DNA of 39,058 nt from a candidate division WS1 bacterium (GTDB lineage: Bacteria > Armatimonadota > Zipacnadia > Zipacnadales > UBA5352). Within the stretch, counting starts at the first letter, position 1; each line of letters begins with the position of its first letter. A program made the position numbers and the translations under genes. The DNA lies in assembly GCA_012522765.1 (NCBI GenBank), contig JAAYJW010000159.1, positions 1 through 39,058 on the forward strand, given 5' to 3'. This document shows, piece after piece, positions 2,641 to 38,502 of the stretch. The notes under the pieces were generated by a model that saw only the letters and a program-made list of their open reading frames with translations, was not told where the DNA came from and did not search any database.

Positions 2641-2664
2641 TAGGGTTTGCAGGTGCGACGTGGA

Positions 2665-3612: not shown

Positions 3613-3654
3613 GTCCATCCTCCCGTGCAGCCAGCCCGCAGCGGGTTGGCGCTC

Positions 3655-18176: not shown

Positions 18177-21068
18177 ATGCTCGCGTCCATGCGACACAAC
18201 CGGCGATGGCGGTCCGGGATCATAGCCGCACTGGTGATCTTTGCGGCCATCGGACTGCTCGACGCCCTGGGGCGCCTCCAGGGCGTCGAACATGTGCTGG
18301 TCGGTGCGCGCTACAGCCTCCGTGGCTCACGGCCTCCCGCGCCTCAGGTGCTGCTGCTGACGGTGGAGGAGGCATCTGCTGCTGCTGATGAACCGGCGCT
18401 ACCATGGTCGCGGGTGAGCATGGCCGAACTGATCCGCGCGCTCGATCGCGCGGGAGCGGCCGTCATCGGCCTCGATCTGCCGATACTCGCGGGAGACCTC
18501 CTGCCAACCGGCTCCGCGGAGGAACACCGGGAACTTGCAGCCGCGATCCGCGCACACGGGCGAGTAGTGCTGCCGATGATCATACGCGAGCGGCCCTCCA
18601 CCGGTGGCGGCGGCATTGAGCAACTCGCGCCCTACGCTCTCGGAAAGGGGGAGATCCGGCGCCCGAGCAGTCTCCTCCCCGGGGCAATTGCGCTTCCCGG
18701 TGCGGAGATCGCGAAGGCGGCCGCGGGCATCGGCGCAACGAACATCTATCCTGATCTTGACGGAGTGGTGCGCGAGGCGCCGCTGGCGGTGTCGTGGGCG
18801 GGCACACGCTATCCCAGCTTCTGGCTGGAGCTGGTGCGCGTGTTCGATGGTGAGCCCCCCGGCAGTGCCACCGCATCTCCCGGTCGGGTGCAGGTGGGGG
18901 ATCGTGAGTTCCTCACCAACGAGAACTTCGAGATCTACATCAACTATGTCGGCGGCTACAGGGAGTTCCCACGCCTGTCATGTGCCGCCGCACTGGAGAT
19001 GCCGCCGGAGGCCCTTCAGCAGGCGGTGAGCGGCAGGATCATCGTCATCGGGACCGATCTGGCGGGAGTAACTCCGCTGCTTGGCGCTCCCACGGCACCG
19101 CAGATGCCCGGCGTCGAAGTTGCGGCCACGGTAACTGAGAACCTTGCAGGGAACAATCTCTTCCGGCGGCCACCGTGGTCCATCACCATGCTCCTGACGC
19201 TCGCATTCACCGTCCTCGTCGGCCGGGTAGTGGCCGGCAGCAGTCCCCTGCATGGACTGCTGGCGACGCTGACGCTGCTGCTGCTGATTGCCGTAGTGGG
19301 GCTGGCGCTCTTCATGGTCGGCGTCTACCTGCCACTGGCGCCACCGCTGCTGTCGGTGGGTCTCACGGGGGCGCTGCTTGCAGCGAACTCCGCGGCGGCC
19401 TCCGATCGCCAGCGGGCGGAGGCGGAGGCGAGGCTGCAGTCGCGCCTGCAGACCATCGCCGGCATCGGGAGGCTCGTCAACTCCACTCTTGACCGCGAGC
19501 AGTTGCTCGTGGAGATCCTGCGCTGGGCCGAGAGCGAGATCAACGCGGAGGCGTCGTCCATCCTGACGATGGACCCGGATGGGCGGCACCTGCGGTTTGA
19601 GGTGGCCCTCGGAGACAAGGCGGAGATGCTCAAGGACATCAGCGTGCGGGTGGGCGAGGGGATCGCCGGGACCGCCGCCGCTACGGGTGAGCCGATCATC
19701 GCCCAGGACGTCCGGCAGGATCGCCGCTGGAGCCCGGATGTGGCCTACGCCATTGACTACGAAACGCGCTCCATCCTCTGTGTGCCGATGATGCTGCGCA
19801 ACAAAGTAGTGGGGGCGATCGAGGTAATCAACAAGATCGGCGGGCCCTTTACTGAGTACGACGTGCAACTGATGCAGGTGATAGCAAACCAGTCTGCTCT
19901 CTTCCTTGAGAATGCGCGGCTTTACGGTGTGCTCTCAGAGCGGGTGGATCTTGCGAATGATGAGCTTCGGCGCGCGAATGAGCGGCTGCAGTTCGAGATG
20001 GCGCGCATTGCCACGCTGGTGGACGAGATGGCGGACGCGGTGGTGGCCACCGACGCCGCGGACCTCGTGGTGATCTTCAATAATGCCGCTGAGCGCATGT
20101 TCGGCATCCGGGACCGCAAAGCTACCGGGCAACCGGTGGTGACGCTGTTCGACCAGCCCGAGATTATTGACCTCTTCTCCATGCCGCTGTCGCCGCACGG
20201 CGGCTCCTACGAGACCGAGATCACGCTTGATGACAGCGGGGGGCGGGTGCTCCGCGCGCACATCGCGCTGGTGGATCAGCCAAACGCCAGGACCATCGGC
20301 AAGTGCGCGGTCTTCACCGACATCTCGCACCTCAAGCAACTCGACAGGATGAAGACCGACCTGATATCCTTCGTTTCGCACGAGCTTAACAACCCGATTG
20401 CCTCGCTGCAGGCGGCCTGCCGAGTGCTGCACGACCGCCTTGCCCCGGACGATGAACGAAGCGGCAAGCTGCTGGAGGTCGCGACGAAGCAGAGTCGGCG
20501 CATGCAGTACCTCGTGCAGGACTTCCTCGACCTCTCGCGGATCGAGGCGGGGCAGGAGCTTGCGCTGCAGTGGACGGAGATAGCCGAACCGGAGAACTTG
20601 ATAGCCGGGGCCATCAGCCTCTGCAGAAGAATGGACGAAGATCATGTGGTCGGCGTGGCTGTGGATGAGAGCGCCCCGCCGCTGTGGGCCGACCGGAACA
20701 AGCTTGAGGCGGTCATCATCAACCTCGTGGAGAACGCGGTGAAGTATTCGCCCGATGGCGGCAGAGTTGACGTGAACCTCTACCGCGAGGGGGACGAGAT
20801 TATCATCGCGGTGGCGGACGAGGGCATCGGGATCCGTGAGGAGGACCTGCCGCGCCTCTTCCGCAGTTTCCAGCGGGTACACGACCGGAGTCACGGTCAG
20901 GTGAGCGGCACCGGCGTGGGCCTCTACATCTGCATGCATATCATGCAGGCGCATGGGGGTAATGTCACAGTAGAGAGCACCTGGGGCGAGGGTTCAACCT
21001 TCCGGCTGCACCTGCCGATCCGCAGTGGTCCGCCGGAGCGGGAGCCTCGCGCGGGAAGCGGCCAATGA
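18177..21068 (+). CDS. CHASE2-GAF-PAS sensor histidine kinase
   Basis: A 963-residue membrane sensor. One N-terminal helix (about 12-30) leads to an extracytoplasmic CHASE2 domain (about 35-330; VLLLTVEEASA, AAVIGLDLPIL and GRIIVIGTDLAG are typical). Three membrane helices follow (about 334-406), then GAF (about 431-580), a coiled coil, PAS (about 608-718), HisKA with FVSHELNNPIASL and phosphoacceptor His735, and HATPase_c with N-box NLVENAVKYSP, VADEGIGI and GTGVGLYI. It would sense an unknown external cue plus an internal ligand and phosphorylate a response regulator. No regulator gene is in this window, making it an orphan kinase. Start ATG 18177 has only a weak GGCGGG site; ATG 18189 is an alternative. 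It overlaps DUF951 by four bases. Confidence 0.92.
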   Translation: MLASMRHNRRWRSGIIAALVIFAAIGLLDALGRLQGVEHVLVGARYSLRGSRPPAPQVLLLTVEEASAAADEPALPWSRVSMAELIRALDRAGAAVIGLDLPILAGDLLPTGSAEEHRELAAAIRAHGRVVLPMIIRERPSTGGGGIEQLAPYALGKGEIRRPSSLLPGAIALPGAEIAKAAAGIGATNIYPDLDGVVREAPLAVSWAGTRYPSFWLELVRVFDGEPPGSATASPGRVQVGDREFLTNENFEIYINYVGGYREFPRLSCAAALEMPPEALQQAVSGRIIVIGTDLAGVTPLLGAPTAPQMPGVEVAATVTENLAGNNLFRRPPWSITMLLTLAFTVLVGRVVAGSSPLHGLLATLTLLLLIAVVGLALFMVGVYLPLAPPLLSVGLTGALLAANSAAASDRQRAEAEARLQSRLQTIAGIGRLVNSTLDREQLLVEILRWAESEINAEASSILTMDPDGRHLRFEVALGDKAEMLKDISVRVGEGIAGTAAATGEPIIAQDVRQDRRWSPDVAYAIDYETRSILCVPMMLRNKVVGAIEVINKIGGPFTEYDVQLMQVIANQSALFLENARLYGVLSERVDLANDELRRANERLQFEMARIATLVDEMADAVVATDAADLVVIFNNAAERMFGIRDRKATGQPVVTLFDQPEIIDLFSMPLSPHGGSYETEITLDDSGGRVLRAHIALVDQPNARTIGKCAVFTDISHLKQLDRMKTDLISFVSHELNNPIASLQAACRVLHDRLAPDDERSGKLLEVATKQSRRMQYLVQDFLDLSRIEAGQELALQWTEIAEPENLIAGAISLCRRMDEDHVVGVAVDESAPPLWADRNKLEAVIINLVENAVKYSPDGGRVDVNLYREGDEIIIAVADEGIGIREEDLPRLFRSFQRVHDRSHGQVSGTGVGLYICMHIMQAHGGNVTVESTWGEGSTFRLHLPIRSGPPEREPRAGSGQ

Positions 21069-23687: not shown

Positions 23688-23700
23688 CTTCTACTCGCCC
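23678..23700. terminator. Palindrome over two convergent stop codons
   Basis: GGGCGAGTAG (23678-23687) and CTACTCGCCC (23691-23700) are perfectly complementary around CTT. The arms contain the stop codons of yjbQ and phosphoketolase. Both messages would end in the same hairpin. No T-tract is present on either strand, so its strength as a terminator is uncertain. Confidence 0.6.
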
Positions 23701-26075
23701 GGCCACTTCCAGTCACGAATCTCGGGCATGTCCTCGCCGTAGTGGGCGACGTATTCCTGGTGGTCAATGATCCGGTCGCGCATCTCCTGCCGGATATGCG
23801 CCGCCCGCTGCCCGAGCCCCGGCACACGATCTATCACGTCCATCACCAGGTGGAAGCGGTCTATGTCGTTGCGCACCGCCATGTCGAAGGGCGTGGTCGT
23901 GGTGCCCTCCTCCTTGAAGCCGCGGACGTGCAGGTTGCTGTGGTTTGTGCGGCGATACGTCAGCCGGTGCAGCAGCCACGGGTAGCCGTGGAAGTTGAAG
24001 ATGATCGGCTTGTCGGCGGTGAAGATCGTGTCGAACTCGCGGTCCGACAGGCCGTGCGGGTGCTCCTCGGGCGGCTGCATCGTCATGAGGTTGACGACAT
24101 TGACGACGCGCACTTTGAGGTCGGGCATGAACTGGCGGATCAGGTCCACCGCCGCGAGTGTCTCGATGGTCGGCACATCCCCGCAGCAGGCCATCACCAC
24201 GTCCGTCTCCCCGTCCTGATCGTTGCTCGCCCAGTCCCAGATGCCGAGGCCCGCGCTGCAGTGCTTGACCGCCATATCCATGTCAAGCCACTGCGGGTTA
24301 TTCTGTTTGCCTGCCACGATCACGTTGATGTAGTCGCGGCTGCGCAGGCAGTGGTCGGCGACGGAGAGCAGGGTGTTCGCATCCGGCGGCAGATAGACGC
24401 GGATGATGTCTGATTTCTTGTTGACTACCAGGTCGAGGAAGCCCGGGTCCTGGTGGCTGAAGCCGTTGTGATCCTGCCGCCAGACATGCGAGGTGAGGAG
24501 GTAGTTGAGCGACGCGATGGGGCGGCGCCACGGGATGTCATCGCGCGCCACCTGCAGCCACTTCGCGTGCTGGTTGAACATCGAGTCCACGATGTGGATG
24601 AAGGCCTCGTAGCAGGAGAAGAAGCCGTGGCGGCCGGTGAGCAGGTAGCCCTCCAGCCAGCCCTGGCAGGTGGTCTCGCTGAGGATCTCCATCACTCGGC
24701 CATCGGGCGCGAGGTTCACATCGTACTCGTCTGTCTCGGCCATCCACGCGCGGTCGGTCACCTCGAAGACGGCGTCGAGGCGATTCGACGAGGTCTCATC
24801 GGGTCCAACGATACGGAAGTTCGCCTGATCGCGATTCTCGGCCATCACATCGCGCAGGAAGGTGCCGAGCACGCGCGTCGCCTCCGCGTCCACCTCTCCG
24901 GGGCCGGGGACTTCGACGCAGTACTGCGTGAAGTCGGGCATCTTGAGGTCGTGCAGGAGCAGGCCTCCGTTGGCGTGCGGATTGAGGCCCATCTTCCGGT
25001 TGCCCTCAGGCGCCAGTTCGAGAAGCTCCGGCTGCGGCCGCCCCTGCTGGTCGAAGAGTTCCTCGGGCCGGTAGCTCTTCATCCACTCCTCGAGGATCTT
25101 AAGGTTCTTCGGCTCGTCGCGCACCTCTTTCATCGGGACCTGGTGCGAGCGCCAGTGGCCCTCGACCTTCTTGCCGTCAATCTCCTCCGGACCGGTCCAG
25201 CCCTTGGGAGTCCGCAGCACGATCATCGGCCAGAGAGGGCGCTCTTTGGCGCCGCTCTCCCGCGCCTCGCGCTGAATGGTGTGGATGCGGTCGATGATGC
25301 CATCCATCGCGGCGGCCATCTGCTGGTGAACGTCCTCGGGGTCATCTCCCTCGACGATCCACGGCTCGTAGCCGTAGCCGACCATCAGGTCATGCAGTTC
25401 ATCGTGCGGAATCCGCGCCAGAACGGTCGGGTTGGCGATCTTGTAGCCGTTGAGGTGCAGGATCGGCAGCACGGCGCCGTCTCGCGCAGGATTGAGGAAC
25501 TTGTTCGAGTGCCACGCCGTGGCGAGCGCCCCGGTCTCGGCCTCGCCATCGCCGACGATGCAGGCGACGATCAGGTCCGGATTGTCGAACGCCGCGCCGT
25601 AGGCATGCGCGAGTGAATAACCAAGCTCTCCGCCCTCGTGGATCGAACCGGGGGTCTCGGGAGCGGTGTGGCTGGGGATGCCGTAGGGGAAGGAGAACTG
25701 CTTGAAGAAGTCCCGCATGCCCTCCTCGTTCTGCTCGATGTTGGGGAACAGCTCACTGTAGCTGCCCTCCAGCCATGTGGCTGCGAGGATGCCGGGCGCG
25801 CCATGTCCAGGGCCGCAGATGTAGATCATGTCGAGGTCATGCGCCTTGATGACGCGGTTGAGGTGCGCGTAGATCATCGTCAGTCCGGGGACGCTGCCCC
25901 AGTGGCCGAGCAGGCGCGGCTTGGCATGCTCGGGCGCCAGCGGCTCGCGCAGCAGCGGGTTATCCATCAGGAATATCTGCCCGACTGAGAGATAGTTGGC
26001 GGCTCGCCACCATGCGTCAATGCGCGCCAGTTCCTCGCGACTGAGCGGCCCTGCCGGCTTCTCGGTAGCACCCAT
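23691..26075 (-). CDS. xfp: Xylulose-5-phosphate/fructose-6-phosphate phosphoketolase
   Basis: A 794-residue thiamine-diphosphate enzyme of normal length. Starts at ATG 26075, behind GAGGAGGTC. Visible signatures are the N-terminal [71 protein letters not shown], and the ThDP-Mg motif [23 protein letters not shown]. Later come [23 protein letters not shown] and the C-terminal [20 protein letters not shown]. It splits xylulose-5-phosphate with phosphate into acetyl-phosphate and glyceraldehyde-3-phosphate (and may cleave fructose-6-phosphate), replacing part of glycolysis. It works in the cytoplasm. With the FGGY kinase in the same window it forms a plausible pentulose route. Which of the two substrates it prefers cannot be decided here. 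Confidence 0.97.
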
Positions 26076-26230: not shown

Positions 26231-27304
26231 ATGGGCTATCACATTGAGCTGCCGGAGGGCGCGTATCACGTCGTCACCGCGCTGGAGCATTGCGCATGGC
26301 CGAACCTGACGCTTATGCCGAACGGAGAGATCGGGGCGGGCATCTACTCGCACCCCAGCCACGGCTGGCATGAGGGCGACCCGGAGCTGTGGGTGAGCTC
26401 CGATGGCGGCTTCACGTGGGCCTGCCGGAGCGAGGTGACGCAGCACGAGCCGCCGACGGTGCGGATGAACGTGGCGGCGGGCCTCAACCCGCAGGGGCAC
26501 CTCGTGGCGCTGGTAAGCGGCTGGAGCCTGCAGGGCGAGGAGCGCTCGGGGCGCGGCGTGGTGCTGCGGCCATGGGTGAGCATCTCCACCGACAACGGGC
26601 ACACCTGGGAGCACGCGAGTGAGGTGGCGCCGAAGCAGGAGGAGATCGAGGGGTTCGAGGAAGCGCCGGTGCTGATCCCCTTCGGCGATGTCTGCGTGAA
26701 TGGCGACGAGTGCGTGGTGAGCTGCTACGGCTCGGCCTCATGGCAGCAGGATGTCGCGCGGCACAGCATCCTCCTGCGCAGCAGCGACGGCGGACGCACG
26801 TGGGGCGATCCATCCATCATCGGCGCCGGTAACTACAATGAGACCGACCTGCTGATCCACTCCAGCGGGCGCTGGCTGGCGCTGGCGCGGACGGCGGGCA
26901 TCGTCAGCCGCGACGTCGAGCGCGGGCATGGGGCGAATGTGCGGCTCTTCGCCTCGGAGGACGAGGGGCGAACATGGGAATTCATGCTCGACCTGAGCCA
27001 GCCGAGCCAGCACCCGGGGCACCTGCTGGAGCTATCGGACGGACGGATCCTCGCCTGCTACGGCTCGCGCATCCCGCGCTTCCGCGGCGTGATGGGCCGC
27101 ATCAGCGACGACGTGGGGGAGACGTGGTCGGCGCCGTTCGTGATCGTCGGCGGCCTGCTTGAGGGCGACTGCGGCTACCCGTCGAGTGTGCAGGTTGAGG
27201 ACGGCAGCATCGTCACCGCCTACTACACGAATGCGGCCCCGTGGCACCAGCGCTATCACATGGGAGTGGTGCGCTGGAGCCTCGACGCGGTGCCGCTCGG
27301 GTGA
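26231..27304 (+). CDS. Sialidase-like BNR/Asp-box repeat protein
   Basis: A 357-residue protein starting at ATG 26231 (GGGAGGG upstream). Five Asp-box motifs of the S-x-D-x-G-x-T-W type mark a six-bladed beta-propeller: SSDGGFTW, STDNGHTW, SSDGGRTW, SEDEGRTW and SDDVGETW, at about residues 56, 116, 192, 252 and 299. An exo-alpha-sialidase or a related glycosidase/sugar-binding role is possible. No signal peptide is present, so it would be cytoplasmic, unlike classical secreted sialidases. The Arg triad cannot be proven. It precedes the SGNH hydrolase by 81 bp on the same strand, and the shared GCGCGGC-GAA leader motif (see findings) lies in both upstream regions. Confidence 0.8.
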   Translation: MGYHIELPEGAYHVVTALEHCAWPNLTLMPNGEIGAGIYSHPSHGWHEGDPELWVSSDGGFTWACRSEVTQHEPPTVRMNVAAGLNPQGHLVALVSGWSLQGEERSGRGVVLRPWVSISTDNGHTWEHASEVAPKQEEIEGFEEAPVLIPFGDVCVNGDECVVSCYGSASWQQDVARHSILLRSSDGGRTWGDPSIIGAGNYNETDLLIHSSGRWLALARTAGIVSRDVERGHGANVRLFASEDEGRTWEFMLDLSQPSQHPGHLLELSDGRILACYGSRIPRFRGVMGRISDDVGETWSAPFVIVGGLLEGDCGYPSSVQVEDGSIVTAYYTNAAPWHQRYHMGVVRWSLDAVPLG

Positions 27305-27385: not shown

Positions 27386-28030
27386 ATGGCTGAATTTCTC
27401 GTGCAGGACGGGCAGCGCTACATCTTCCAGGGCGACTCGATCACCGACGCGGGACGACGGGCGGCAGCAGCGCCACTCGGCACCGGCTACCCGAAGTTCG
27501 TGGTGGACCTCGTCACGGCGAAGTACCCCGAGCGGCGGATCGAGTGGATCAACCGCGGGATCAGCGGCAACCGTGTCACGCAGCTTGCGGAGCGCTGGAC
27601 CGACGACGTCATCCGCCACGAGCCGGACTGGGTGTCGATCCTGATCGGCATCAACGACCTGCACTCGATGCTGCGGCAGATGGAGCCGATCGTGCCGGTG
27701 GAGCTTTACCGGGAGAAGTACGGCGAGATCATCTCGCGCACGATCATGGAGACCGGCGCGCAGGTGGTGCTGATCGACCCGTTCTACATGACCGTGGACA
27801 GCAGCGGCCACGACTGGCGCTCGGTGGTGCTGGAGGCGCTGCCGGAGTACATCGCGGTTGTGCGCGAGATGGCGCAGCAGCATGGCTGCCGGCACATCCC
27901 GATGCACGACATCTTCCAGGAGCAACTTGCGCTGCGCGAGAGCGAGGTCTTCTGCCCCGAGCCGGTGCACCCGGGCCCGACGGGGCACGTGTGCATCGCG
28001 AACGCGATCGTGGAGACGCTGGGGGGGTAG
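27386..28030 (+). CDS. GDSL/SGNH-family hydrolase
   Basis: A 214-residue hydrolase, ATG 27386 with GTGGAGG upstream. SGNH blocks are seen in order: block I FQGDSITDAG (catalytic Ser about residue 18), block II NRGISGNR (Gly), block III LIGINDLH (Asn), block V EPVHPGPTGH with the catalytic His. The residue three before that His, normally Asp, is Glu here, a conservative change that should keep the triad. Family members are carbohydrate esterases, lipases or rhamnogalacturonan acetylesterases. There is no signal peptide, so it probably removes acyl groups from imported sugars, which fits the neighbouring sugar genes. Substrate is unknown. Confidence 0.9.
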   Translation: MAEFLVQDGQRYIFQGDSITDAGRRAAAAPLGTGYPKFVVDLVTAKYPERRIEWINRGISGNRVTQLAERWTDDVIRHEPDWVSILIGINDLHSMLRQMEPIVPVELYREKYGEIISRTIMETGAQVVLIDPFYMTVDSSGHDWRSVVLEALPEYIAVVREMAQQHGCRHIPMHDIFQEQLALRESEVFCPEPVHPGPTGHVCIANAIVETLGG

Positions 28031-28576: not shown

Positions 28577-29755
28577 TCAGATCCTCTCGATCTCCACGAA
28601 CTGGCCCGTCTCCATCGACTCGAGCGCCGCGAAGGCGATTGCGCCGGACATCCACGCGTCCTGGATGCCCTCCTCCGGGTCATCATTGCGCTCAATACGG
28701 TCGAGGAAGTGGCTCAGCAGCGCCATGTCGTGATGCTGGTGCCCCCAACCCTCCGGTGGCTGCACGTCAATGACCTCCGGCTCGCGGTCGCCCACCGGCA
28801 GGTAGTCGATCTTGTAGCTGTGCATGTCCGTGCGAAGCTCACCATCGGTGCCCATCAGGATCATGCGCCGGTCGCCACGCGGCGCGACCATCGTCATCGT
28901 GTACGACACGCGCATGCCGTTGTCGAACTGCGCCACCAGCGACGTGTTGTCGGTGGTGTCCTTGTCCACGTTATACACGCAGTAGTCGTCCGGCAGCACC
29001 TGCGGGCCGGCGGTCTCGTAGAAGCGCTTGCGGTAGGCCTCGCCCTGGTCGCTGTAGTAGATGCACTCGGCGGTGCGGCCGCAGTCTTTGCAGTAGTCCG
29101 CGGCGTCCTCGCGCGGCGTGAAGCAGTCGAGCCCGCCCATCGCCGCCACGCGCGTCGGGTATGCGTCGAGGATGAAGTTGATGATGTCCAGCGTGTGGCA
29201 GCCCTTGTGCAGGAGCATGTCGCCGGACATCTCCTTGAAGCGATTCCAGCGGCGCATGTAGGTGGAGCCGTGGAACCAGCCCACCGCCTCGTGGACGATC
29301 GCCGCGATCGGCTTGCCGATGGCCCCGCCCCGCACGAGTTCGCGCATCTTCATCGCCAGCGGGTCGTAGCGCAGCACGAAGCCGAGGTGGAGGATCTTGC
29401 CGGCCTTGCGCGCGGCCTGGCAGATCGCGGCGGCATCCTCGGGGTTCGTCGCCAGCGGCTTCTCCACGAGGCAGTGTTTCCCCGCGTCGAAGCAGGCAAC
29501 GGCCGGTTCGCGGTGGGCGTAGTCGGGCGTGCAGACGAGCACCGCGTCCACGTCGTCCATCTCGCCCAGCTTTTCCGGGCCGATCACCTGCGGGCAATCG
29601 AGCTTGTTCTCCTCGCAGAAGTTGGCGACCGTCGCGGGGGTGCGGCCGACCATGGCCGCCCACTCCGCCCGCCCCGGCTCCATGCGGTTCATCACGTCAA
29701 CGTAGATCTGCCCCCGCCCACCTGTTCCGAGCAGCGCGAGTCTGATAGGCGCCAT
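28577..29755 (-). CDS. Gfo/Idh/MocA family oxidoreductase with four-Cys insertion
   Basis: A 392-residue NAD(P)-dependent dehydrogenase, last gene of the leftward six-gene operon. Start ATG 29755 (AGGAGG five bases upstream) is preferred over 29758. IRLALLGTGGRGQIYVDVM is the Rossmann nucleotide motif, HCLVEKPLATNPEDA holds the catalytic EKP, and HEAVGWFHGSTYMRRWNRF with GDMLLHKGCHTLDIINFI carries the conserved His. A Cys cluster YCKDCGRTAEC plus a further Cys (DDYC) about 28 residues later sits in the substrate domain. It is a clear paralogue of the gene at 31740-32930. Family members oxidise or reduce sugars, inositols or bile pigments. Substrate unknown. Confidence 0.92.
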   Translation of the reverse strand: MAPIRLALLGTGGRGQIYVDVMNRMEPGRAEWAAMVGRTPATVANFCEENKLDCPQVIGPEKLGEMDDVDAVLVCTPDYAHREPAVACFDAGKHCLVEKPLATNPEDAAAICQAARKAGKILHLGFVLRYDPLAMKMRELVRGGAIGKPIAAIVHEAVGWFHGSTYMRRWNRFKEMSGDMLLHKGCHTLDIINFILDAYPTRVAAMGGLDCFTPREDAADYCKDCGRTAECIYYSDQGEAYRKRFYETAGPQVLPDDYCVYNVDKDTTDNTSLVAQFDNGMRVSYTMTMVAPRGDRRMILMGTDGELRTDMHSYKIDYLPVGDREPEVIDVQPPEGWGHQHHDMALLSHFLDRIERNDDPEEGIQDAWMSGAIAFAALESMETGQFVEIERI

Positions 29756-29781
29756 CATGTCCTCCTGTATGATCTGTGCGT

Positions 29782-30585
29782 TCACTGGCCGAAACGATCG
29801 GCGACGATTCGCTCAAGCATGTTGCGGGGTGCGAAGCGGCGGCCAAGTTCGGCCTGGATCGTGTCTGCCCCGACGCTGTGATGCGCGGCGGGTGACTTCT
29901 GCCGCGCGACATGGACCACCGCGCGGGCGACATCATCGGGATCAAGTCCGGTCGCGAAGAGCTTCTCCACCGCCTTGAGGAAGCTCTCGCGGCCCTCGTC
30001 GTAAGCCGCGATCGGCTCGGCCGGCAGGCGCCCGGACTCCTCGAAGCCGGTGCGGGTGAAGCCGGGGTCAACGGTGCATACCTGCACGCCGAAGGGCTGC
30101 AGTTCAACGCGCATCGACTCGGTCATGCCCATGATCGCGAACTTGGTCGCCGAGTAGAGCGCCTCGAAGGGCACACCGACGATGCCCGCGCCCGAGGAGA
30201 TGTTGATGATCCGCCCGCTGCCGCGCTCGCGCATCCCCGGCAGAACCGCCCGGCACATGCGCAGCACGCCGAAGACGTTCACCTCGAAGATGGCCTGCGC
30301 CTCCTCAAGGTTCGTCTCTTCCCCGGCAGCGAAGAGCCCGTAGCCAGCGCTGTTGACCAGCAGGTCAACGTGATCGGCCTGCTCCATCACCGTGCCGACG
30401 CATGCCCCGACGGAGGCATCGCTGGTGACATCAAGCTCAAGCATCGTGACGCCATCGAGGCCGGGCGCATTCGCGCTCCGGCTGGTGCCGAAGACGCGGT
30501 AGCCGGCCTCATGCAGACGCGCGGCGCTGGCGCGGCCGATCCCCGACGATGCGCCCGTGACAAGCGCGACCTTCTGCTCAGCCAT
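29782..30585 (-). CDS. Short-chain dehydrogenase/reductase (SDR)
   Basis: A 267-residue classical SDR. Visible are the cofactor motif VTGASSGIG (residues 8-16), LVNSAGYG (about 76-83), active-site Ser in INISSGAGIVG and YSATK (about 145-149), and the PGFTRTGF segment. This predicts NAD(P)H-dependent alcohol/ketone redox chemistry. Its ATG lies two bases after the stop of the aldo/keto reductase gene, with a GGAGGA site inside that gene's end. It is thus translationally coupled. Lacking a dedicated substrate signature, it could act on sugars, keto acids or lipids; the sugar operon makes a sugar-derived ketone likely (inference). Confidence 0.92.
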   Translation of the reverse strand: MAEQKVALVTGASSGIGRASAARLHEAGYRVFGTSRSANAPGLDGVTMLELDVTSDASVGACVGTVMEQADHVDLLVNSAGYGLFAAGEETNLEEAQAIFEVNVFGVLRMCRAVLPGMRERGSGRIINISSGAGIVGVPFEALYSATKFAIMGMTESMRVELQPFGVQVCTVDPGFTRTGFEESGRLPAEPIAAYDEGRESFLKAVEKLFATGLDPDDVARAVVHVARQKSPAAHHSVGADTIQAELGRRFAPRNMLERIVADRFGQ

Positions 30586-30587
30586 CC

Positions 30588-31718
30588 TCAGTCCTCCGCC
30601 GTGAGCGCCTCATGGGCCGCCGCGAGTTTCTCAATGATCGGGATATTCTGCGGGCAGCGCTCTTCGCAGAGCCCGCACTCCACGCAGTGGGAGGCCCACT
30701 CGTCGGGGTTGGTCATCTTCTGATAGCCCATCCGCGCGCGCTGTGCATTGAACATGGACATGTCGTTGTACAGGTAGAACACGCGTGGGATGTTAACTCC
30801 CTGCGGGCACGGCATGCAATAGCGGCAGGCGGTGCAGTCAACCAGCATCTTCTCACGGTAGTGCGCCTGGATGCCCGCGATCAGTTCATGCTCCTCGGGG
30901 GTCATCGCGCCGGGCGCCGTCGCAGCGGCGACCGCGATGTTCTCCTGCAGGTGGTCCATCCGGTTCATGCCGCTGAGCGTGACCGCCGGCTCGGGTTGAT
31001 CGAAGACCCAGCGCAGGCCGAGTTGCGCGGGCGACCACTCGACGCCACGCTCCTGGCGCTTCGCCTCAAGCTCCTCCGGGAGCGGCTCCCCGAGCGTCCC
31101 GCCGCGCAGAGGCTCCATCACCACGATGCCGATGCCACGCTCCGCGGCGTAGTGCATGCCCTCCGTCCCGGCCTGCACGCGCTCGTCCATGTAGTTGTAC
31201 TGAATCTGACAGAAGTCCCAGTCCCACGCATCCACGATTTCTTTGAAGCAGTCCACGTGATCGTGGAAGGAGAAGCCGGCGTGGCGGATGCGGCCATCCT
31301 CCAGCGCGCGCTCGAGGAAGCCCAGCACGCCAAGGCCGTGCAGCCTCTGCCAGCTTGGGCCGATGAGGCTGTGCAGCATGTAAAAGTCGATGTGATCGGT
31401 CCTCAGTCGCTTAAGTTGCTCGTCGAGGATGCGCTCGCAGTCCTCCAGCGTCTCCACCGACCACGGCGGCAGCTTCGTCGCGATGAACACCTCGTCGCGG
31501 ATGCCCTCAATCGCCCTGCCCACCAGCGGCTCGCTGTTGCCGCCGTGGTAGCCCCAGGCGGAGTCGAGGTAATTGACACCCCGCTCGAGGGCGTGGTGGA
31601 TCAGCCCGATGGCGGTGCCCGCATCAATCTGATCGTGCTTGCCGTCCATGATCGGCAGGCGCATGCAGCCGAAGCCGAGCGCCGACACCTCTTCGCCACA
31701 GAGAGTGCGATACTGCAA
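30588..31718 (-). CDS. Aldo/keto reductase with C-terminal [4Fe-4S] domain
   Basis: A 376-residue protein starting at TTG 31718 (AGAGGAG upstream). The N-terminal AKR barrel shows the tetrad regions NYLDSAWGYHGG (Asp, Tyr), FIATKLPP (Lys) and FYMLHSL (His), then QIQYNYMD and VMEPLRGGTLG. The last about 80 residues hold two ferredoxin-like Cys clusters: DCTACRYCMPCPQGVNIP and CVECGLCEERCPQNIP. Such COG1453-type proteins probably link sugar or aldehyde redox to Fe-S electron transfer; few are characterised. It sits between a Gfo/Idh gene (21 bp upstream) and the SDR (2 bp). Function in this operon would be to move electrons during sugar remodelling (inference). Confidence 0.9.
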   Translation of the reverse strand: MQYRTLCGEEVSALGFGCMRLPIMDGKHDQIDAGTAIGLIHHALERGVNYLDSAWGYHGGNSEPLVGRAIEGIRDEVFIATKLPPWSVETLEDCERILDEQLKRLRTDHIDFYMLHSLIGPSWQRLHGLGVLGFLERALEDGRIRHAGFSFHDHVDCFKEIVDAWDWDFCQIQYNYMDERVQAGTEGMHYAAERGIGIVVMEPLRGGTLGEPLPEELEAKRQERGVEWSPAQLGLRWVFDQPEPAVTLSGMNRMDHLQENIAVAAATAPGAMTPEEHELIAGIQAHYREKMLVDCTACRYCMPCPQGVNIPRVFYLYNDMSMFNAQRARMGYQKMTNPDEWASHCVECGLCEERCPQNIPIIEKLAAAHEALTAED

Positions 31719-31739
31719 CGTGAAGCTCCTCTCGCTCTG

Positions 31740-32930
31740 CTACAGCTCCTCGATCTGCACGATGCTGCCGCTCTCGATCGAGTCGATCGCGGCGAAGGCG
31801 ACTGAGCCGGAGTGGTAGGCATAGCGGATGCCCTGCTCGGGGTCATCGCCGCGCTCGATGCGGTCGAGGAAGTCGGACATGAGGTCCACGTCGGCGAGTT
31901 TGTGACCGCCGCCCTCGGGGCGCTCGATGGGAATGATCTCCGGCTCCTCCTCGGGGATATGCCGAAGCTCCATCGTGTACTCGCTCCGCCCCATGACGGC
32001 AATGATCTCGCCCTCGGTGCCGATGAAGTTGAAACGCCGCTGGTCGTGCTGGTGGCTGAGCGTCATCGTGTATGACAGCCGCACGCGCTCGTCGAACTCC
32101 GCGGAGAGGAAGACCGTGTCGGTGGAGTCCTTGTCCACGTTGTACACGCAGGCATCAATCGGCAGCGCGCCGGCGCCGCTGGAGCCCGAGCGCTCGGCCG
32201 GCTCCTCCTCCGGCGGCGTGACGCGGTAGATGCAGTCCTCGACGCTGCAGTCGCGGCACTGCATGGCCGCGTCAGAGCGCGGCAGGAAGATCTCCGTGCC
32301 GCCGAAGGCCGCCACGCGCTGGGGAAAGACGCCGGTGATCCAGTTGAACAGGTCAAGCGTATGACAGCCCTTGTGCAGCAGCAGGTCGCCGGAGTACTTG
32401 CGCAGGCGGTGCCAGCGGCGGAAGTAGGTGCTGCCGTGATGATAGCCGACGGCCTCATGCACGGTGCCGCCGAGCAGCCGCCCGACCGCTCCGCCCCGCA
32501 CCATCTCGCGCAACTTCACCGCCATCGGGTCGAAGCGCAGCACGAAGCCCGACACAAGCACCTTGTCCGCATCGAGGGCCGCGCGGCAGACATCGCGTGC
32601 CCCCTGCGGATCCACCGCGACGGGCTTCTCCACCAGCACGTGCTTGCCGTGCTCGTAGCACATCACCGCGAGATCGCGATGCGTGTGATCGGGGGTGCAG
32701 ATGACCACCGCGTCAAGGTCGGGCATCGCGAGCAGGTCTCCCGCATCCTCGATCTGCGTTCCACTGAGTTCGTGGGTCTCGCAGAAGCGGGCGCGCTTGT
32801 CCGCGTCAATGTCGCAGATTGCCAGCCACTCCGCCCGCGGCTCGGAGAGACCTTCGTTAATCTCCTTGATGGCGTTGGCATAGACGCGGCCGCGGGGGCC
32901 GGTGCCGATGAGTCCGAGCTTGATTGACAT
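31740..32930 (-). CDS. Gfo/Idh/MocA family oxidoreductase with four-Cys insertion
   Basis: A 396-residue paralogue of the gene at 28577-29755, sharing the LVEKP, HEAVGYHHGSTYFRRW, LLLHKGCHTLDLFN and CVYNVDKDSTD segments. The Rossmann motif is LGLIGTGPRGRVYANA. The Cys cluster is QCRDCSVEDC, plus a fourth Cys in DACVYN, with an intervening acidic, Gly/Ser-rich loop (EEEPAERSGSSG). Start ATG 32930 follows GGGAGAAG. It lies 30 bp after the isomerase gene and 21 bp before the aldo/keto reductase gene. The two paralogues in one operon may act on successive or opposite redox steps, or be partners in a hetero-oligomer. Substrate is unknown. Confidence 0.92.
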   Translation of the reverse strand: MSIKLGLIGTGPRGRVYANAIKEINEGLSEPRAEWLAICDIDADKRARFCETHELSGTQIEDAGDLLAMPDLDAVVICTPDHTHRDLAVMCYEHGKHVLVEKPVAVDPQGARDVCRAALDADKVLVSGFVLRFDPMAVKLREMVRGGAVGRLLGGTVHEAVGYHHGSTYFRRWHRLRKYSGDLLLHKGCHTLDLFNWITGVFPQRVAAFGGTEIFLPRSDAAMQCRDCSVEDCIYRVTPPEEEPAERSGSSGAGALPIDACVYNVDKDSTDTVFLSAEFDERVRLSYTMTLSHQHDQRRFNFIGTEGEIIAVMGRSEYTMELRHIPEEEPEIIPIERPEGGGHKLADVDLMSDFLDRIERGDDPEQGIRYAYHSGSVAFAAIDSIESGSIVQIEEL

Positions 32931-32960
32931 GTTACTTCTCCCTCGGGGCGTAGTTGTTGC

Positions 32961-33818
32961 CTATCCCCGCAATTCTCTCAGATGTTGCAGGCTTGCACGA
33001 AGCGCCTGCGCCTTCTCCTGCATCGGGACATGCTCGACGTTGATGACATGCACGCGATCCGCCGGGTGATCGAGGGCGGCCCGAACGTAGCGCTCAAGCT
33101 CCGTCTCGCCGGTGCCAAGCTCCACCGACAGAAACGGGCGCTTGCCTGCCGGGTCGGGGCGGTGGTCCTTCCAGCCGATCACCGGCACGCGGTCGGGATG
33201 GCGCTCAATGAGCTCCCCGCCCGCCTGGCCGCAGGTGGTCATGTGACCGGTGTTGAGCAGGATGCCGCCTCGGTCGGAGGATAGCTCCGCGATGTACCGC
33301 TCGCAGTCATCTGTGCTTTCTATCACACCATGGTAGTGCGCGTCTACCGCAAAAAGCGTCTCCGGGAACTCCGCGGCGACGGCATCAACGATCCGCGCGA
33401 GGCGTTGCACCAGCGGCAGCTTCGCCTCAACCGCCAGCCCCGGGTTCGGCGCGCGCCCTCCGCCATGCCCGAGATGCCGGCAGCCAAGCTCCACAGCAAC
33501 GCGAGCACCATCGCGTAGATGGCCGACGCTCGTCTCGAAGGTGGCGTCTGAGGATGGATCGATGCCCGCGCAGTAGAGGCCGATGATCTCCAGCCCCGCA
33601 TCGGCCACGATCCGCTTCACGATGCCGAGGTCAGACTGCGCGAGGTCGAGCAGGCAGGCGTCGGGGATGTTGCCCTCGGTCAGCGCCGGTCTGCCGGGGA
33701 TGGACATGAGCATGACGCCCTCGAAGCCGCACTCCCGCAGCGTGGCGCAGGCCTCCGGCAGCGACAGCGTGTCCTGTCCGTCGAAGGTCATCGCGTGAAT
33801 GATCGCGGAGAAGGTCAT
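32961..33818 (-). CDS. Sugar phosphate isomerase/epimerase family TIM-barrel protein
   Basis: A 285-residue TIM barrel of the xylose-isomerase-like superfamily. LRECGFEGVMLMS is the first-strand region; later ones are LGCRHLGHGGG, LFAVDAHYHG, GILLNTGHMTTCGQ (usual metal-ligand D/H region), VPVIGWKDHR and LSVELGTGETELERY with the last Glu. The ATG at 33818 overlaps the stop of the upstream Gfo/Idh gene by four bases. Some enzymes of this fold were recently linked to oxidised glycoside (3-keto-sugar) elimination in partnership with Gfo/Idh dehydrogenases; that is a family-level possibility here, not shown by this sequence. Confidence 0.85.
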   Translation of the reverse strand: MTFSAIIHAMTFDGQDTLSLPEACATLRECGFEGVMLMSIPGRPALTEGNIPDACLLDLAQSDLGIVKRIVADAGLEIIGLYCAGIDPSSDATFETSVGHLRDGARVAVELGCRHLGHGGGRAPNPGLAVEAKLPLVQRLARIVDAVAAEFPETLFAVDAHYHGVIESTDDCERYIAELSSDRGGILLNTGHMTTCGQAGGELIERHPDRVPVIGWKDHRPDPAGKRPFLSVELGTGETELERYVRAALDHPADRVHVINVEHVPMQEKAQALRASLQHLRELRG

Positions 33819-34771
33819 TGCGGCGCGCCTCCCTCGTGGCAGAGTCTCACGATCTCCTCGGCAAGCTCCATGGTGCGGAGCGTGTCGGCGATGGGGCAGA
33901 TGTCCTCGGCCTCGCCGCGCACCGCTGCGAGGAAACTCGCCACGTCATCGAAGTAGCCCCACCAGTCGATCAGCCGCTGCGGGTTCCACGTGCCCGCGCG
34001 AAGGCAGATGTCATCGCCGCCGGGCCGGTGGTAGCGCAGGTCGCCATCGTGGGCGAAGATAGTGTGCCCGTTGCGGCCGGTCACTTCAAAGTAGATGAAC
34101 TCATCGGGCGCATCCATCTCCCGCACGGTGTTGAGCGACGCCACGCACCCGCTCTGCAGCGTCACGGCCGCGACGTAGCCGCGCGTGCCCTCGCTGAGGA
34201 TCGGCGTCACCTGCGCGCTCTTCCAGTCACCGAGCAGGTGCAGAAGCAGGTCGATCGCGTGCACGTGCTGATCGAGGATCGCTTCGCGCCAGACTTCGCG
34301 GCTCATCAGGCCGTAGCGGATGATGCCCAGCGACGGCGCGCCGAAGTCGCCGCCCGCGATGATCTCCCGCACCCGGCGGACGCTCGGCGCCGAGCGGAAG
34401 TTGAAGCCGACATGGCACACCACGCTCGCCTCTGCCGCGGCATCGGCCATCTCCCGCACGCGCGCGGATGAGTTCGACGCGGGCTTCTGCACGTAGAGCG
34501 GAAAGCCCGCCCGCAGCACCTGCAGGCCGACCTCGTACTGCATGCCATGCGGCCCCACGCAGAAGACGGCGTCGGGACGCTCATCGTCGAGCATTGCGTG
34601 GAAGTCCGTGTAGACGCGCGCGAAGCCGTGGCAGGCCGCCGCGCGTTGCGCCCGTGTCTCGTCGAGATCGCAGATCGCCGCAAGCTCGACCTCATGCCGC
34701 CCAAGCTGCGGGTGAATGAAGCGGCTGGAGAAGCCGCCTGCGCCGATGTAAGCGACGCTGAGCGAAGCCAT
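33815..34771 (-). CDS. Gfo/Idh/MocA family oxidoreductase, first gene of the operon
   Basis: A 318-residue oxidoreductase starting at ATG 34771, eight bases from AGGAGG. VAYIGAGGFSSRFIHP is the nucleotide motif and AAICDLDETRA the following acidic switch. The catalytic EKP is QKP here (LYVQKPASNSSARV), keeping the Lys. DQHVHAIDLLLHLLGDW has the usual His-Asp. It lacks the four-Cys insertion of its two neighbours and is shorter, so it is a different subfamily. A 147-bp region separates it from the divergent metallophosphoesterase gene and should hold both promoters. Its stop overlaps the isomerase start. Confidence 0.9.
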   Translation of the reverse strand: MASLSVAYIGAGGFSSRFIHPQLGRHEVELAAICDLDETRAQRAAACHGFARVYTDFHAMLDDERPDAVFCVGPHGMQYEVGLQVLRAGFPLYVQKPASNSSARVREMADAAAEASVVCHVGFNFRSAPSVRRVREIIAGGDFGAPSLGIIRYGLMSREVWREAILDQHVHAIDLLLHLLGDWKSAQVTPILSEGTRGYVAAVTLQSGCVASLNTVREMDAPDEFIYFEVTGRNGHTIFAHDGDLRYHRPGGDDICLRAGTWNPQRLIDWWGYFDDVASFLAAVRGEAEDICPIADTLRTMELAEEIVRLCHEGGAPQ

Positions 34772-34918: not shown

Positions 34919-36322
34919 ATGCTGACGTCATCTACCTCGCGCCCACATTGCGCGGCGCTGCTCGCGCTGGCGCTTCTTCTTATTGCCGCACAACTGTCCG
35001 CCGCTGAGCCCGTGGCTTCGTGGGACGCCGCGGCAGATAGCCCGCTGGCTGATAGCTCCGGGAGCGGTCACGACCTCACGCCGCACGGGGTCACGGTGGA
35101 GGAATACCTCGGCACGCCGCTGTTGCGCACCGGCACGAACCAGCATGCCGCCGCCGGGAGCATCGGCGATGGCTGGGAGGCCCTGACGCTACACGTGGTG
35201 CTGCTGCAGGAGAGTGCGCACGGCGTCTACGGCGGGATCATCGCGCGTGACAACTACGGCGGCGGCGAGGGCGATGTCTTCGGGCTGCTGACCACCCCGC
35301 AGGACCACTGGAATGCCCGGCTGCGAACTTCCGAGGGGCAGATCACGCTCGGAACGCCGATCCTGACCGGCTGGCATCACCTCGCGCTGACGTGGGATGG
35401 AGCGACGGCGCGGCTCTACCTCGACGGCAAGCAGGTGCGCGAGGCTCCCCTCAGCGGGCAGATCGTCGCGGAGCCGGGCACGCCGCTGGTGCTCGGCGCC
35501 TACTCGAACCTGCGCGGCCCGTTCGAGGGCGGCATAGCATTCGCGGAGGTGCATGACCGCGCGCTCGATGCCGGGGAGATCGCGACCGTCTGGGCGCAGT
35601 GGCAGGCGACCCAGCCGGAGATCACCGGCTTCACCTTCGCGCAGGCCTCCGATGTGCATATCACCGACACGAAGAGCGTGGAGATCCTCAACGACGGCGT
35701 GGATGCCATCAACGCGGATGGGCGCATCGTCTTCAGCCTGTGGCTGGGCGACCTGACGCAGAATTGCGCCGCCGATGAGATGGCGCTGGCGCGGATGGGG
35801 CTCGATCGCCTGCGGCGGCAGCGCTACACGCTGCGCGGCAACCACGACCAGCGCGATGGGCTCTACGAGGCGGAGTTCGGCGAGCTGAACTACACCTTCG
35901 ACTACGCCGGGTGGAAGTTCATCATGCTTGACAGCAACCCCGGAGATAAGACGCCGATCGCTGAGGAGCGGATGCAGTGGCTGCGGGAGGTGCTTGCTGA
36001 GACGGACGCGGAGCAGCCGCTTGTGCTATGCACGCACCACCCGCTCGCGCCGGGGATGAACCTGCGGATGGCGGGGGCCGATGATGTGCTGGCGCTCTTC
36101 GCGGGGCACAATCTCACGGCGGCCCTCTGCGGTCACCATCACGGGAATCACGAGGAGATCGTGGACGGCGTGCTGTACACGAAGACCGCCTGCCTCGCCA
36201 CCACGCGCACCAACTTCGACGGCGACACGCGGCGCGGCTACCGCCTCTTCCACTGCACGGAGGACGGCATCACGACGGAGTTCGTCCCGGTGCGAGATGT
36301 CCCGCGCGAGGACGTGCGGTGA
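34919..36322 (+). CDS. Exported LamG plus metallophosphoesterase protein
   Basis: A 467-residue protein. ATG 34919 follows AAGGA and opens a signal peptide (CAALLALALLLIAAQLSAAEP; cut near 29). Residues about 30-220 form a LamG/concanavalin-like jelly roll (GWHHLALTWDGATARLYLDG). Residues about 235-450 are a calcineurin-like phosphoesterase with the motif series ASDVHI, LGDLTQ, RGNHDQRDG, CTHHPLAPG and CGHHHGNHE, which bind two metals. It would hydrolyse a phosphomonoester or diester outside the cytoplasm, the LamG part perhaps binding glycans. It may be controlled jointly with the divergent oxidoreductase operon. Confidence 0.9.
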   Translation: MLTSSTSRPHCAALLALALLLIAAQLSAAEPVASWDAAADSPLADSSGSGHDLTPHGVTVEEYLGTPLLRTGTNQHAAAGSIGDGWEALTLHVVLLQESAHGVYGGIIARDNYGGGEGDVFGLLTTPQDHWNARLRTSEGQITLGTPILTGWHHLALTWDGATARLYLDGKQVREAPLSGQIVAEPGTPLVLGAYSNLRGPFEGGIAFAEVHDRALDAGEIATVWAQWQATQPEITGFTFAQASDVHITDTKSVEILNDGVDAINADGRIVFSLWLGDLTQNCAADEMALARMGLDRLRRQRYTLRGNHDQRDGLYEAEFGELNYTFDYAGWKFIMLDSNPGDKTPIAEERMQWLREVLAETDAEQPLVLCTHHPLAPGMNLRMAGADDVLALFAGHNLTAALCGHHHGNHEEIVDGVLYTKTACLATTRTNFDGDTRRGYRLFHCTEDGITTEFVPVRDVPREDVR

Positions 36323-36503: not shown

Positions 36504-37478
36504 CTACGGCGCTTTGCTCTCGGGGCCCGCCGGGAACATCCTGTCCAGCGCGCTCAGCACGTCCGCTGGAATCTCCGCCTCCGCCGCGCCGAGATTGTCC
36601 TCAAGCTGGCTTGCTCTTGTCACACCGCTGATGACGCTCGTCACCGCCGGATGCTGCAGGCACCACGCGATCGCAAGCTGCGCGCAGGTCAGGCCGAGGT
36701 CGCCCGCCATCTCCTTCATCGTCTGCACCGTGCGCAGTTGCTCGTCGCTGAAGTACATGTCCATCATGATCTTATTCTGCGTGTCATCCGCCGCGCGCGT
36801 GCCCTCAGGCGGCGCCTGCCCCGGCTCGTACTTTCCCGTCAGCACTCCATGCGCCAGCGGTGAGAAGACCACGTTGCCGAGGCCGTTGTGCAGGCAGGTG
36901 GGGAAGACCTGCTCCTCCGGTTCACGGTAGAGCAGTGAGTAGCGCGGCTGGTTCGACACCGGTGGGCGGGCACCCATCATCTTTGCGAGGTCGCACGCCT
37001 CCTGTATCAGCGCCGCGGGCCACTCGCTCACGCCCCAGTAGAGGATCTTCCCCGCGCGCGCGAGGTCATCCATGATGCGGATGGTCTCCTCCAGCGGCGT
37101 TTCCGGGTCGGGCCGGTGGCACTGGTAGAGGTCAATGTAATCCGTCTGCAGTCGCTTGAGCGACGCGTGGCACTGCTCGTAGACATGCTTGGCTGAGAGG
37201 CCGCGGTCATTCGCGCCGTCGCCCATCGGCGCCCAGACCTTCGTCGCCAGCACGTAGTCATCGCGATCGTAGTCGCGCAGGATCTTTCCCAGCGCGATCT
37301 CCGCTCCTCCGCGGTTGTATGCGTTCGCGGTGTCGATCCAGTTGATGCCGCCATCGAAGGCGACCTTCACGCACTCGGCCGCGGTCTCGTCATCCACGTG
37401 CATGCCGATGGTCAGGTAGCTTCCAAGCCCGATCGTGCTGAGCTTCACGCCCCACTTGCCAAGGTTGCGGTATTGCAT
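36504..37478 (-). CDS. Aldo/keto reductase, potassium-channel-beta-like
   Basis: A 324-residue NADPH-dependent reductase with the full AKR layout: GVKLSTIGLGSYLTIG at the start, NWIDTANAYNRGGAE (Asp, Tyr), VLATKVWAPMG (Lys), DLYQCHRPDPETPLEET (His), WGVSEWPAAL, NQPRYSLLYREPE, FSPLAHGVLTGKY and PAVTSVISGVTRASQLEDN. It matches the AKR6/AKR11-type group by the ISG..RPEQL-like ending. Start ATG 37478 lies after GAGGGAGG. It has no Fe-S tail, unlike the reductase at 30588. Cytoplasmic. Substrate is probably a small aldehyde or sugar. It stands 127 bp after the MBL-fold gene on the same strand and could be its co-transcribed neighbour. Confidence 0.93.
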   Translation of the reverse strand: MQYRNLGKWGVKLSTIGLGSYLTIGMHVDDETAAECVKVAFDGGINWIDTANAYNRGGAEIALGKILRDYDRDDYVLATKVWAPMGDGANDRGLSAKHVYEQCHASLKRLQTDYIDLYQCHRPDPETPLEETIRIMDDLARAGKILYWGVSEWPAALIQEACDLAKMMGARPPVSNQPRYSLLYREPEEQVFPTCLHNGLGNVVFSPLAHGVLTGKYEPGQAPPEGTRAADDTQNKIMMDMYFSDEQLRTVQTMKEMAGDLGLTCAQLAIAWCLQHPAVTSVISGVTRASQLEDNLGAAEAEIPADVLSALDRMFPAGPESKAP

Positions 37479-37605: not shown

Positions 37606-38502
37606 TCAATACTCGTACGACCGATCCTCCAGGTTGTGCTGCTCGCCTGGACTTGGGAAGTGCACTCCCAGGCAGATCTCCCGCGCCACCGGCTCGAACT
37701 CATCAACCCGGCTCATGTCGCAGTGAGCAATGATGAGCGTCTCGGCGCCCGCGTCCCTGCCGAGCATCGCCGCCTGCCGGATGCTCTGATGGCCCGACGG
37801 ACTATCCGGCGGCGGTTCCGTCAGGCCGGTGGAGCCCTCTGTCACGAGGTCATCCACGCCGCTGAAGAAGCGCGCCAGCTCAGGCACGTACGCCGTGTCG
37901 CCGGTGATGCCGATGGACACCCCGGTCTCCACGTCCAGGAAGCGGTACCCGAGGCTCGGCACGGCGTGCCGGGTCGCGACGGTGGCGATGTCCAACTCGC
38001 TGGCGCGCAGGCCATCGCCAGGCTGCAGCGGCAGCACCTCCGGCCGAGGACAGCCATTGCCGATGCGGTCGGCCTGGATGAAGGCCATCGTCAGGTCCAC
38101 GATCCGCTCGATGTCCTTCGCCGGCCCCGCGACCACCAGCCGTTCATCGCTCTCGATCCGCCCCGCTTGCATGGCGCGGTAGAACAGGACGCTCGCGAGA
38201 CCCATGTAGTGATCCTGATGGCAATGCGTCAGCAGCACATGCGTGAGCATCGTCGCATCATACTCCGGGCGGCGCATCATCGTGATCCCCGCCGCCCAGC
38301 CGCAGTCTACCAGCACGTGCCCGTTGAGCAGGAATGAGGCGGTGTCACTGTCATCCAGCGGCGTGCACGAGGACACGCCCACGAATGTCAGCGTCGTCAG
38401 CGTCGTCAGCTTCATCGGCCCGAAATTGTCCCAGTCTTGCTCGTCGTCGCCGCCCTCAAGCTCGTCCCTGCCGTCAAGCTCGCGCCAGTCTTCAAAGTCC
38501 AT
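37606..38502 (-). CDS. MBL-fold metallo-hydrolase (ribonuclease Z-like)
   Basis: A 298-residue protein; ATG 38502 follows GAGGAGTAGG. Metal-ligand motifs of the beta-lactamase fold are seen: LLTHCHQDHYMGL (HxHxDH), VATRHAVPSLGY, GITGDTAY and IIAHCDMS. Compared with the usual MKLTFLGTGS start of such proteins, this one has an acidic N-terminal extension (MDFEDWREL to DNFGP, about 29 residues) and a TTLTTL insertion encoded by a 9-bp tandem repeat (38387-38410). It may be a phosphodiesterase, arylsulfatase-like enzyme or RNase Z relative. The catalytic metal site looks intact. Its start is four bases after the end of the next gene upstream, so the two are coupled. Confidence 0.88.
   Translation of the reverse strand: MDFEDWRELDGRDELEGGDDEQDWDNFGPMKLTTLTTLTFVGVSSCTPLDDSDTASFLLNGHVLVDCGWAAGITMMRRPEYDATMLTHVLLTHCHQDHYMGLASVLFYRAMQAGRIESDERLVVAGPAKDIERIVDLTMAFIQADRIGNGCPRPEVLPLQPGDGLRASELDIATVATRHAVPSLGYRFLDVETGVSIGITGDTAYVPELARFFSGVDDLVTEGSTGLTEPPPDSPSGHQSIRQAAMLGRDAGAETLIIAHCDMSRVDEFEPVAREICLGVHFPSPGEQHNLEDRSYEY

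Follow-up and report, generated by a model that had tools for sequence, protein, structure and literature searches.

Oxidative breakdown of glycosides by Gfo/Idh/MocA-type dehydrogenases (Gfo) and TIM-barrel enzymes has recently been recognised as an alternative to hydrolysis. Two pathways of this kind have been established experimentally: the levoglucosan pathway of Bacillus smithii (LgdA/LgdB1/LgdB2/LgdC; PMC7676230) and O-glycoside deglycosylation by GlycDH, AtOGE and AtHYD of A. tumefaciens, in which AtHYD is a 2-hydroxy-3-keto-glucal hydratase (PMC10628242). We compared these systems with a six-gene operon on the minus strand (positions 28577-34771) of a 39,058-nucleotide stretch of DNA, hereafter the window, from a candidate division WS1 bacterium (assembly GCA_012522765.1, contig JAAYJW010000159.1). 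The window is one contig of a 4.9 Mb genome (98% complete, 521 contigs), relatives of which are named Armatimonadetes or Candidatus Zipacnadia; the class Zipacnadia is known from marine sediments and is largely anaerobic and fermentative or acetogenic (PMC10290634). We judge the chances to be about even that the operon is a modular cluster for NAD(P)-linked carbohydrate catabolism, in which a pair formed by one Gfo (GfoA) and a xylose-isomerase-like TIM barrel (TIM) is followed by a redox module. A literature search for a pathway combining an Fe-S aldo/keto reductase (AKR), Gfo enzymes and a TIM barrel returned nothing relevant.

A preliminary description of the operon had named three Gfo/Idh/MocA enzymes, a short-chain dehydrogenase (SDR), a ferredoxin-tailed AKR and a TIM barrel. 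Searches of open reading frames (ORFs) and domains verified all six ORFs and the domains claimed for them, which are, in operon order:

33815..34771, minus strand: GfoA, a Gfo/Idh/MocA dehydrogenase of 318 aa without a Cys cluster, whose QKP motif retains the catalytic Lys96
32961..33818, minus strand: TIM, a xylose-isomerase-like TIM barrel of 285 aa (PF01261), with D159xH161, N189xGHxTT, WKDH219 and E262 conserved
31740..32930, minus strand: GfoB, a Cys-cluster Gfo/Idh/MocA paralogue of 396 aa, 49% identical to GfoC
30588..31718, minus strand: Fe-S AKR of 376 aa with a TTG start, an AKR barrel followed by two C-terminal 4Fe-4S motifs
29782..30585, minus strand: SDR, a classical short-chain dehydrogenase of 267 aa
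28577..29785, minus strand: GfoC, a Cys-cluster Gfo/Idh/MocA enzyme of 402 aa, or 392-393 aa with an ATG start at ~29755-29758

The tight spacing described earlier largely stood, with GfoA and TIM overlapping by 4 bp (ATGA) and gaps of 30 bp (TIM-GfoB), 21 bp (GfoB-AKR) and 2 bp (AKR-SDR). The exception was a 4-bp overlap of SDR and GfoC, which holds only with a GTG start for GfoC. A Shine-Dalgarno-like AGGAGG directly precedes ATGATG (~29755-29758), 27-30 bp beyond the GTG, and several GfoC homologues start near there; GfoC therefore probably starts at the ATG, with a true spacing of ~26 bp. A promoter scan gave results near chance level. The idea that a cluster of three Gfos is improbable in itself was dropped, since the whole genome holds 68 Gfo-like matches and the chance of three in some six-gene stretch was P ~0.13 (random placement, ~4500 genes assumed). 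We regard the cassette as more than chance because its arrangement is conserved in relatives, not because of its Gfo count.

The element conserved most widely was the GfoA+TIM pair. A GfoA orthologue adjoined TIM in 17 of the 25 Armatimonadota TIM loci that are not truncated at the edge of a contig, and another Gfo did so in five more, so that only three untruncated loci (G026, G041 and G261; G labels denote genomes and L labels loci) were without a nearby Gfo (22/25 with any Gfo adjacent). The junction was usually the 4-bp ATGA overlap, G055 being an exception with a gap of ~120 bp. GfoA orthologues next to TIM were found across the order, and the pair itself is found again in part of the phylum. 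Distant pairs were neighboured by heparinase II/III-like genes (G042, G041), GH67N/DUF4838 (G066), ThuA and DUF6259 (G255), and also by housekeeping genes. On balance, we assign the pair to carbohydrate catabolism, because some distant members adjoin heparinase-like, GH67N or ThuA genes. A row of genes at the G255 locus (L119:6034-9634), made up of ThuA, a tandem pair of TIM-family genes and one Gfo, is possibly a two-TIM (eliminase and hydratase) version of the core pair.

Homologous regions fetched from relatives showed how further modules are added to this conserved unit. With MBL denoting a metallo-beta-lactamase-fold hydrolase, URO-D a protein of that superfamily and AKR6 a second AKR, the gene orders were:

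G001: MBL - URO-D - AKR6 - GfoA - TIM - Fe-S AKR - GfoC
G002: MBL - URO-D - AKR6 - GfoA - TIM, with Fe-S AKR - SDR - GfoC on the same contig ~34 kb away
G007: class II aldolase - MBL - URO-D - AKR6 - GfoA - TIM - GfoC
G008: AKR6 - GfoA - TIM - URO-D - GfoB - Fe-S AKR - Fe-S AKR2 - GfoC
G006 and G009: GfoA - TIM - GfoC

A search for the exact gene order, suggested in the preliminary description, thus recovered recurring sub-modules, but among the homologous regions compared the complete six-gene order occurred in the window only. A GfoB orthologue was present only in G008 (69%), and an SDR orthologue in the equivalent position only in G002 (73%). The cassette is accordingly made of joined modules rather than being one fixed unit: module 1 comprises GfoA and TIM, and module 2 the Fe-S AKR (with or without SDR) and GfoC. 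URO-D superfamily proteins repeatedly adjoined GfoA/TIM or GfoC modules in relatives (L021:7225-8364, L024:14834-15982, L024:2540-3553, L035:7781-8746 and L070:3176-4291); none is encoded in the window.

The AlphaFold model of TIM was confident (pLDDT 96.5), and its best solved fold matches in a structure search were IolE (TM 0.76), AtHYD (0.72, fourth best), Art22 and ketose 3-epimerases, with a 3-keto-beta-glucopyranoside lyase at rank 49. IolE was also the best match of the TIM sequence profile. Across 29 TIM homologues, D159, H161, N189, T195, K217, D218, H219 and E262 were invariant or near-invariant and position 215 was Gly or Ala, alongside the invariant His219; the metal-ligand pattern of IolE, AtOGE and D-tagatose 3-epimerase (E/H on beta-5, D on beta-6, H on beta-7, E on beta-8) was not kept in them. 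The canonical ligands were placed by alignment, not coordinate superposition, with a second TIM barrel of the window (575-1408), which retains the canonical E-D-H-E set. The E, D, H and E ligands aligned with D159, N189, G215 and E262 of TIM, and a hidden Markov model alignment to IolE gave the same correspondence for strands 5-7.

The Mn2+ ligands of AtOGE are the beta-5 His, beta-6 Asp and beta-7 His; its catalytic base is the His two residues past the beta-5 ligand, and the substitution H189A abolishes activity (PMC10628242). The strand-5 DxH of TIM aligned with the H/E-x-H of known eliminases. From these residue patterns, the TIM family appears to retain the catalytic base (H161) while its metal set has changed, and His219 may stand in for the beta-7 ligand. 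TIM folds like IolE and AtHYD but represents a distinct family with an unusual, uncharacterised active site, and the alteration of that site is the most novel part of the system.

These features bear directly on cleavage of a glycoside or anhydrosugar exactly as in the levoglucosan or A. tumefaciens pathways, that is, by Gfo oxidation at C3, beta-elimination and hydration by TIM, and reduction by a second Gfo. The same enzyme families occur here in one operon, the oxidation-elimination-hydration-reduction logic of the levoglucosan locus would apply, both precedents are experimental, AtHYD is the fourth best fold match (17% identity), the beta-5 x-x-H with its conserved catalytic His is shared with the A. 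tumefaciens system, and at L119 a Gfo and a pair of TIM genes adjoin ThuA. Nevertheless, we consider this explanation unlikely. The known pathways use two TIM enzymes whereas the operon encodes one, and in TIM the beta-6 Asp and beta-7 His ligands of the eliminases are replaced by Asn and Gly/Ala. The levoglucosan locus also differs in having adjacent ABC transporter genes and neither an Fe-S AKR nor an SDR, and no close sequence relation was found (53-62 of 650 bits for the levoglucosan dehydrogenase model). In the C-glycoside deglycosidases (DgpA with CGE/CGD alpha-beta), a Gfo oxidase is likewise joined to a TIM barrel; their CGD beta subunit (PF19906) was not found in the genome in a search without a positive control, which may also count against cleavage, and the C-glycoside deglycosidase reading was provisionally set aside. 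Genes for PF06439 (3-keto-disaccharide hydrolase) are present on other contigs of the genome. The earlier proposal of an oxidative sugar or glycoside pathway thus survives in part: redox carbohydrate catabolism fits the enzyme families, the folds (IolE, AtHYD, 3-keto-glucopyranoside lyase) and the distant neighbours, but for glycoside cleavage TIM lacks the metal-ligand set of known eliminases.

The frequency of D-tagatose/D-allulose 3-epimerases among the fold matches could suggest interconversion of rare sugars or sugar acids, with TIM acting as a ketose or keto-acid epimerase fed by the dehydrogenases and no bond being cleaved. Uronate-related neighbours (heparinase II/III, GH67N) at distant loci and the class II aldolase of G007 are consistent with this, but TIM departs from the E-D-H-E metal set of these epimerases, and the dehydratase IolE and hydratase AtHYD are at least as close in fold as any epimerase; we hold it to be distinctly unlikely.

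All three Gfos have the Rossmann domain PF01408 and the C-terminal PF02894/PF22725 of the family, although for GfoA PF02894 fell slightly under the cut-off while PF22725 exceeded it. The catalytic Lys motif and a downstream His are present in each (EKP and H193xxxH197 in GfoC/GfoB; QKP and Q168/H171 in GfoA). GfoA belongs to a different branch from GfoB and GfoC, its best solved relative being 3m2t. Inositol dehydrogenase models were among the best for all three, and IolE ranked first for TIM by both fold and profile, together suggesting cyclitol catabolism of the inositol type, in which the Gfos would be inositol dehydrogenases, TIM would resemble inosose dehydratase, and the AKRs and SDR would process the keto-inositol. 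Scores were, however, far under the curated cut-offs (30.2 of 290 bits for TIM with the IolE model TIGR04379, 68-102 of 355 for IolG), TIM does not keep the IolE ligand pattern, and no IolD (TIGR04377) exceeded its cut-off in this 98% complete genome (best 206.8 versus 715 bits). The canonical inositol pathway was rejected because both IolD and IolE were under cut-off, and we regard any inositol-type route as quite improbable.

GfoC, which is more conserved than any other protein of the set, matched 1,5-anhydrofructose reductase and, among Gfo/Idh-type enzymes with transient Gfo oxidation, RgNanOx, YjhC and the NAD-dependent sulfoquinovosidases (SqgA/GH188). GfoB and GfoC have in common a Cys4 insertion (C-x2-C-x4/5-C...C) that alignments to solved relatives do not cover, confirming the two Cys-cluster paralogues reported earlier (C225/C228/C233/C261 in GfoB; C232/C235/C241/C269 in GfoC). 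GfoC further differs from those relatives in sitting with other redox enzymes; its alignments to RgNanOx/YjhC-type enzymes ended near residue 218, ahead of the insertion, and its AlphaFold model was uninformative there (pLDDT <50 at 219-248 and 255-278). Because two other Gfo paralogues of the genome carry the cluster, we read the insertion as the mark of a subfamily and dropped it as a special feature of the cassette. The Fe-S AKR, which we take to be COG1453-type, has an intact tetrad (D52, Y57, K82, H116) and two 4Fe-4S motifs (C295-C304, C345-C355). Like other Fe-S AKRs it joins an AKR barrel to a C-terminal dicluster ferredoxin domain, with nothing distinctive in sequence, and its novelty lies only in the accompanying genes. 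A second Fe-S AKR copy (42% identity) is encoded elsewhere in the genome; neither this enzyme nor the Cys-cluster Gfos are thus the new elements they had been taken for.

Among 291 Armatimonadota genomes, TIM was found in 25, GfoC in 11 and both in 9 (P ~3e-9, kinship ignored). Within the family that contains most of these, 7 genomes had both and 3 neither, one of the three being 59% complete. GfoC orthologues (63-70%) were also present in other Armatimonadota and in metagenome-assembled genomes of Verrucomicrobia and Lentisphaerae. TIM was not found in the four of these genomes that were checked, nor was its family found in 388 genomes from the phylum of the GfoC-bearing Verrucomicrobia relative (both searches without a positive control).

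From which genes are present, how they are coupled and conserved, and what folds and residue patterns they are predicted to have, the direction of steps that we infer for NAD(P)-linked carbohydrate catabolism would be as follows. GfoA would act on a sugar, sugar acid or glycoside and oxidise a single hydroxyl group to a ketone. TIM, using His161 and neighbouring acidic residues, would remove the proton next to that ketone, and the outcome would be elimination, dehydration/hydration or epimerisation. The enzymes of module 2 (Fe-S AKR, SDR and GfoC, here with GfoB) would then reduce or re-oxidise the product and balance redox cofactors; in this lineage, which is probably anaerobic, the Fe-S AKR may couple ferredoxin to a carbonyl/alcohol pair. 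Several points weigh against this interpretation. No characterised enzyme is close to TIM in sequence (~15-17% identity), and TIM, lacking the canonical metal ligands, may have a different chemistry. The modules are separable, as in G002 and in the many genomes with GfoA+TIM and no GfoC, and may serve different pathways. Kinship inflates the co-occurrence of TIM and GfoC, 7 of the 9 genomes with both belonging to one family, and the cluster contains no substrate-specific gene, transporter or regulator.

The limits first given for the unit (28577-34771) were too narrow. It probably extends past them on both sides, because the second AKR, the metallo-hydrolase, the GDSL esterase and the BNR protein are conserved with the cassette. 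The flanking genes are:

36507..37478, minus strand: second AKR, Kv-beta/AKR6-like, without Fe-S motifs; kept upstream of GfoA in G001, G002, G007 and G008
37609..38502, minus strand: metallo-beta-lactamase-fold hydrolase (PF12706); kept upstream of the same block in G001, G002 and G007
27386..28027, plus strand: GDSL/SGNH esterase, convergent with GfoC; kept there in G002, G007, G008 and G009
26231..27301, plus strand: BNR (Asp-box) beta-propeller protein with sialidase-like repeats, without the FRIP motif; adjoins GDSL in G002, G007 and G008
34919..36319, plus strand: LamG and calcineurin-like phosphoesterase protein, divergent from GfoA, start uncertain; homologues likewise placed in G001, G002, G006 and G009

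The BNR protein beside GfoC is strongly conserved (64-89%); in the stretch fetched from G009, GDSL was recognised without BNR. These two genes, with RgNanOx and YjhC among the best solved relatives of GfoC, brought sialic acid salvage into consideration, in which they would encode a sialidase and a sialate O-acetylesterase and GfoC a 2,7-anhydro-Neu5Ac oxidoreductase. Asp boxes are present in the BNR protein but the FRIP arginine motif is not, the GfoC alignments stop short of the Cys insertion, and the genome has no convincing NanE (23 bits versus a cut-off of 27). Among the other family genomes with GfoC, a NanE match was seen only in G008, where it was marginal and lay in a long reading frame, probably that of a different TIM-barrel protein. 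Sialic acid salvage was dropped for want of the FRIP motif and a convincing NanE, and we consider it highly improbable.

Elsewhere in the window, a glycerate kinase lies between two xylose-isomerase-like TIM barrels (575-3618, minus strand), an arrangement resembling a hydroxypyruvate isomerase/glycerate kinase unit. Other genes encode a DUF6785/DUF6784 protein (16044-17915, minus strand) and a CHASE2-GAF-PAS histidine kinase (18420-21065, plus strand), and a large minus-strand ORF (23694-26075), by eye a putative phosphoketolase, would fit fermentative acetate production.

As a tentative and somewhat doubtful extension, we propose that TIM may found a keto-sugar enzyme family not described before and seen to date in Armatimonadota alone, with a dedicated Gfo and a metal site either rearranged or missing. 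In Zipacnadia this family would be joined to a ferredoxin-linked reductase module for anaerobic oxidative glycan degradation of an undescribed type. If true, the chemistry known for oxidative glycoside breakdown would be extended by a family at phylum level whose active site is altered yet conserved and which is tied to a dedicated dehydrogenase. It would also offer a way to test how uncultured Armatimonadota of sediments, which carry dozens of unassigned Gfo genes in their genomes, use carbohydrates.

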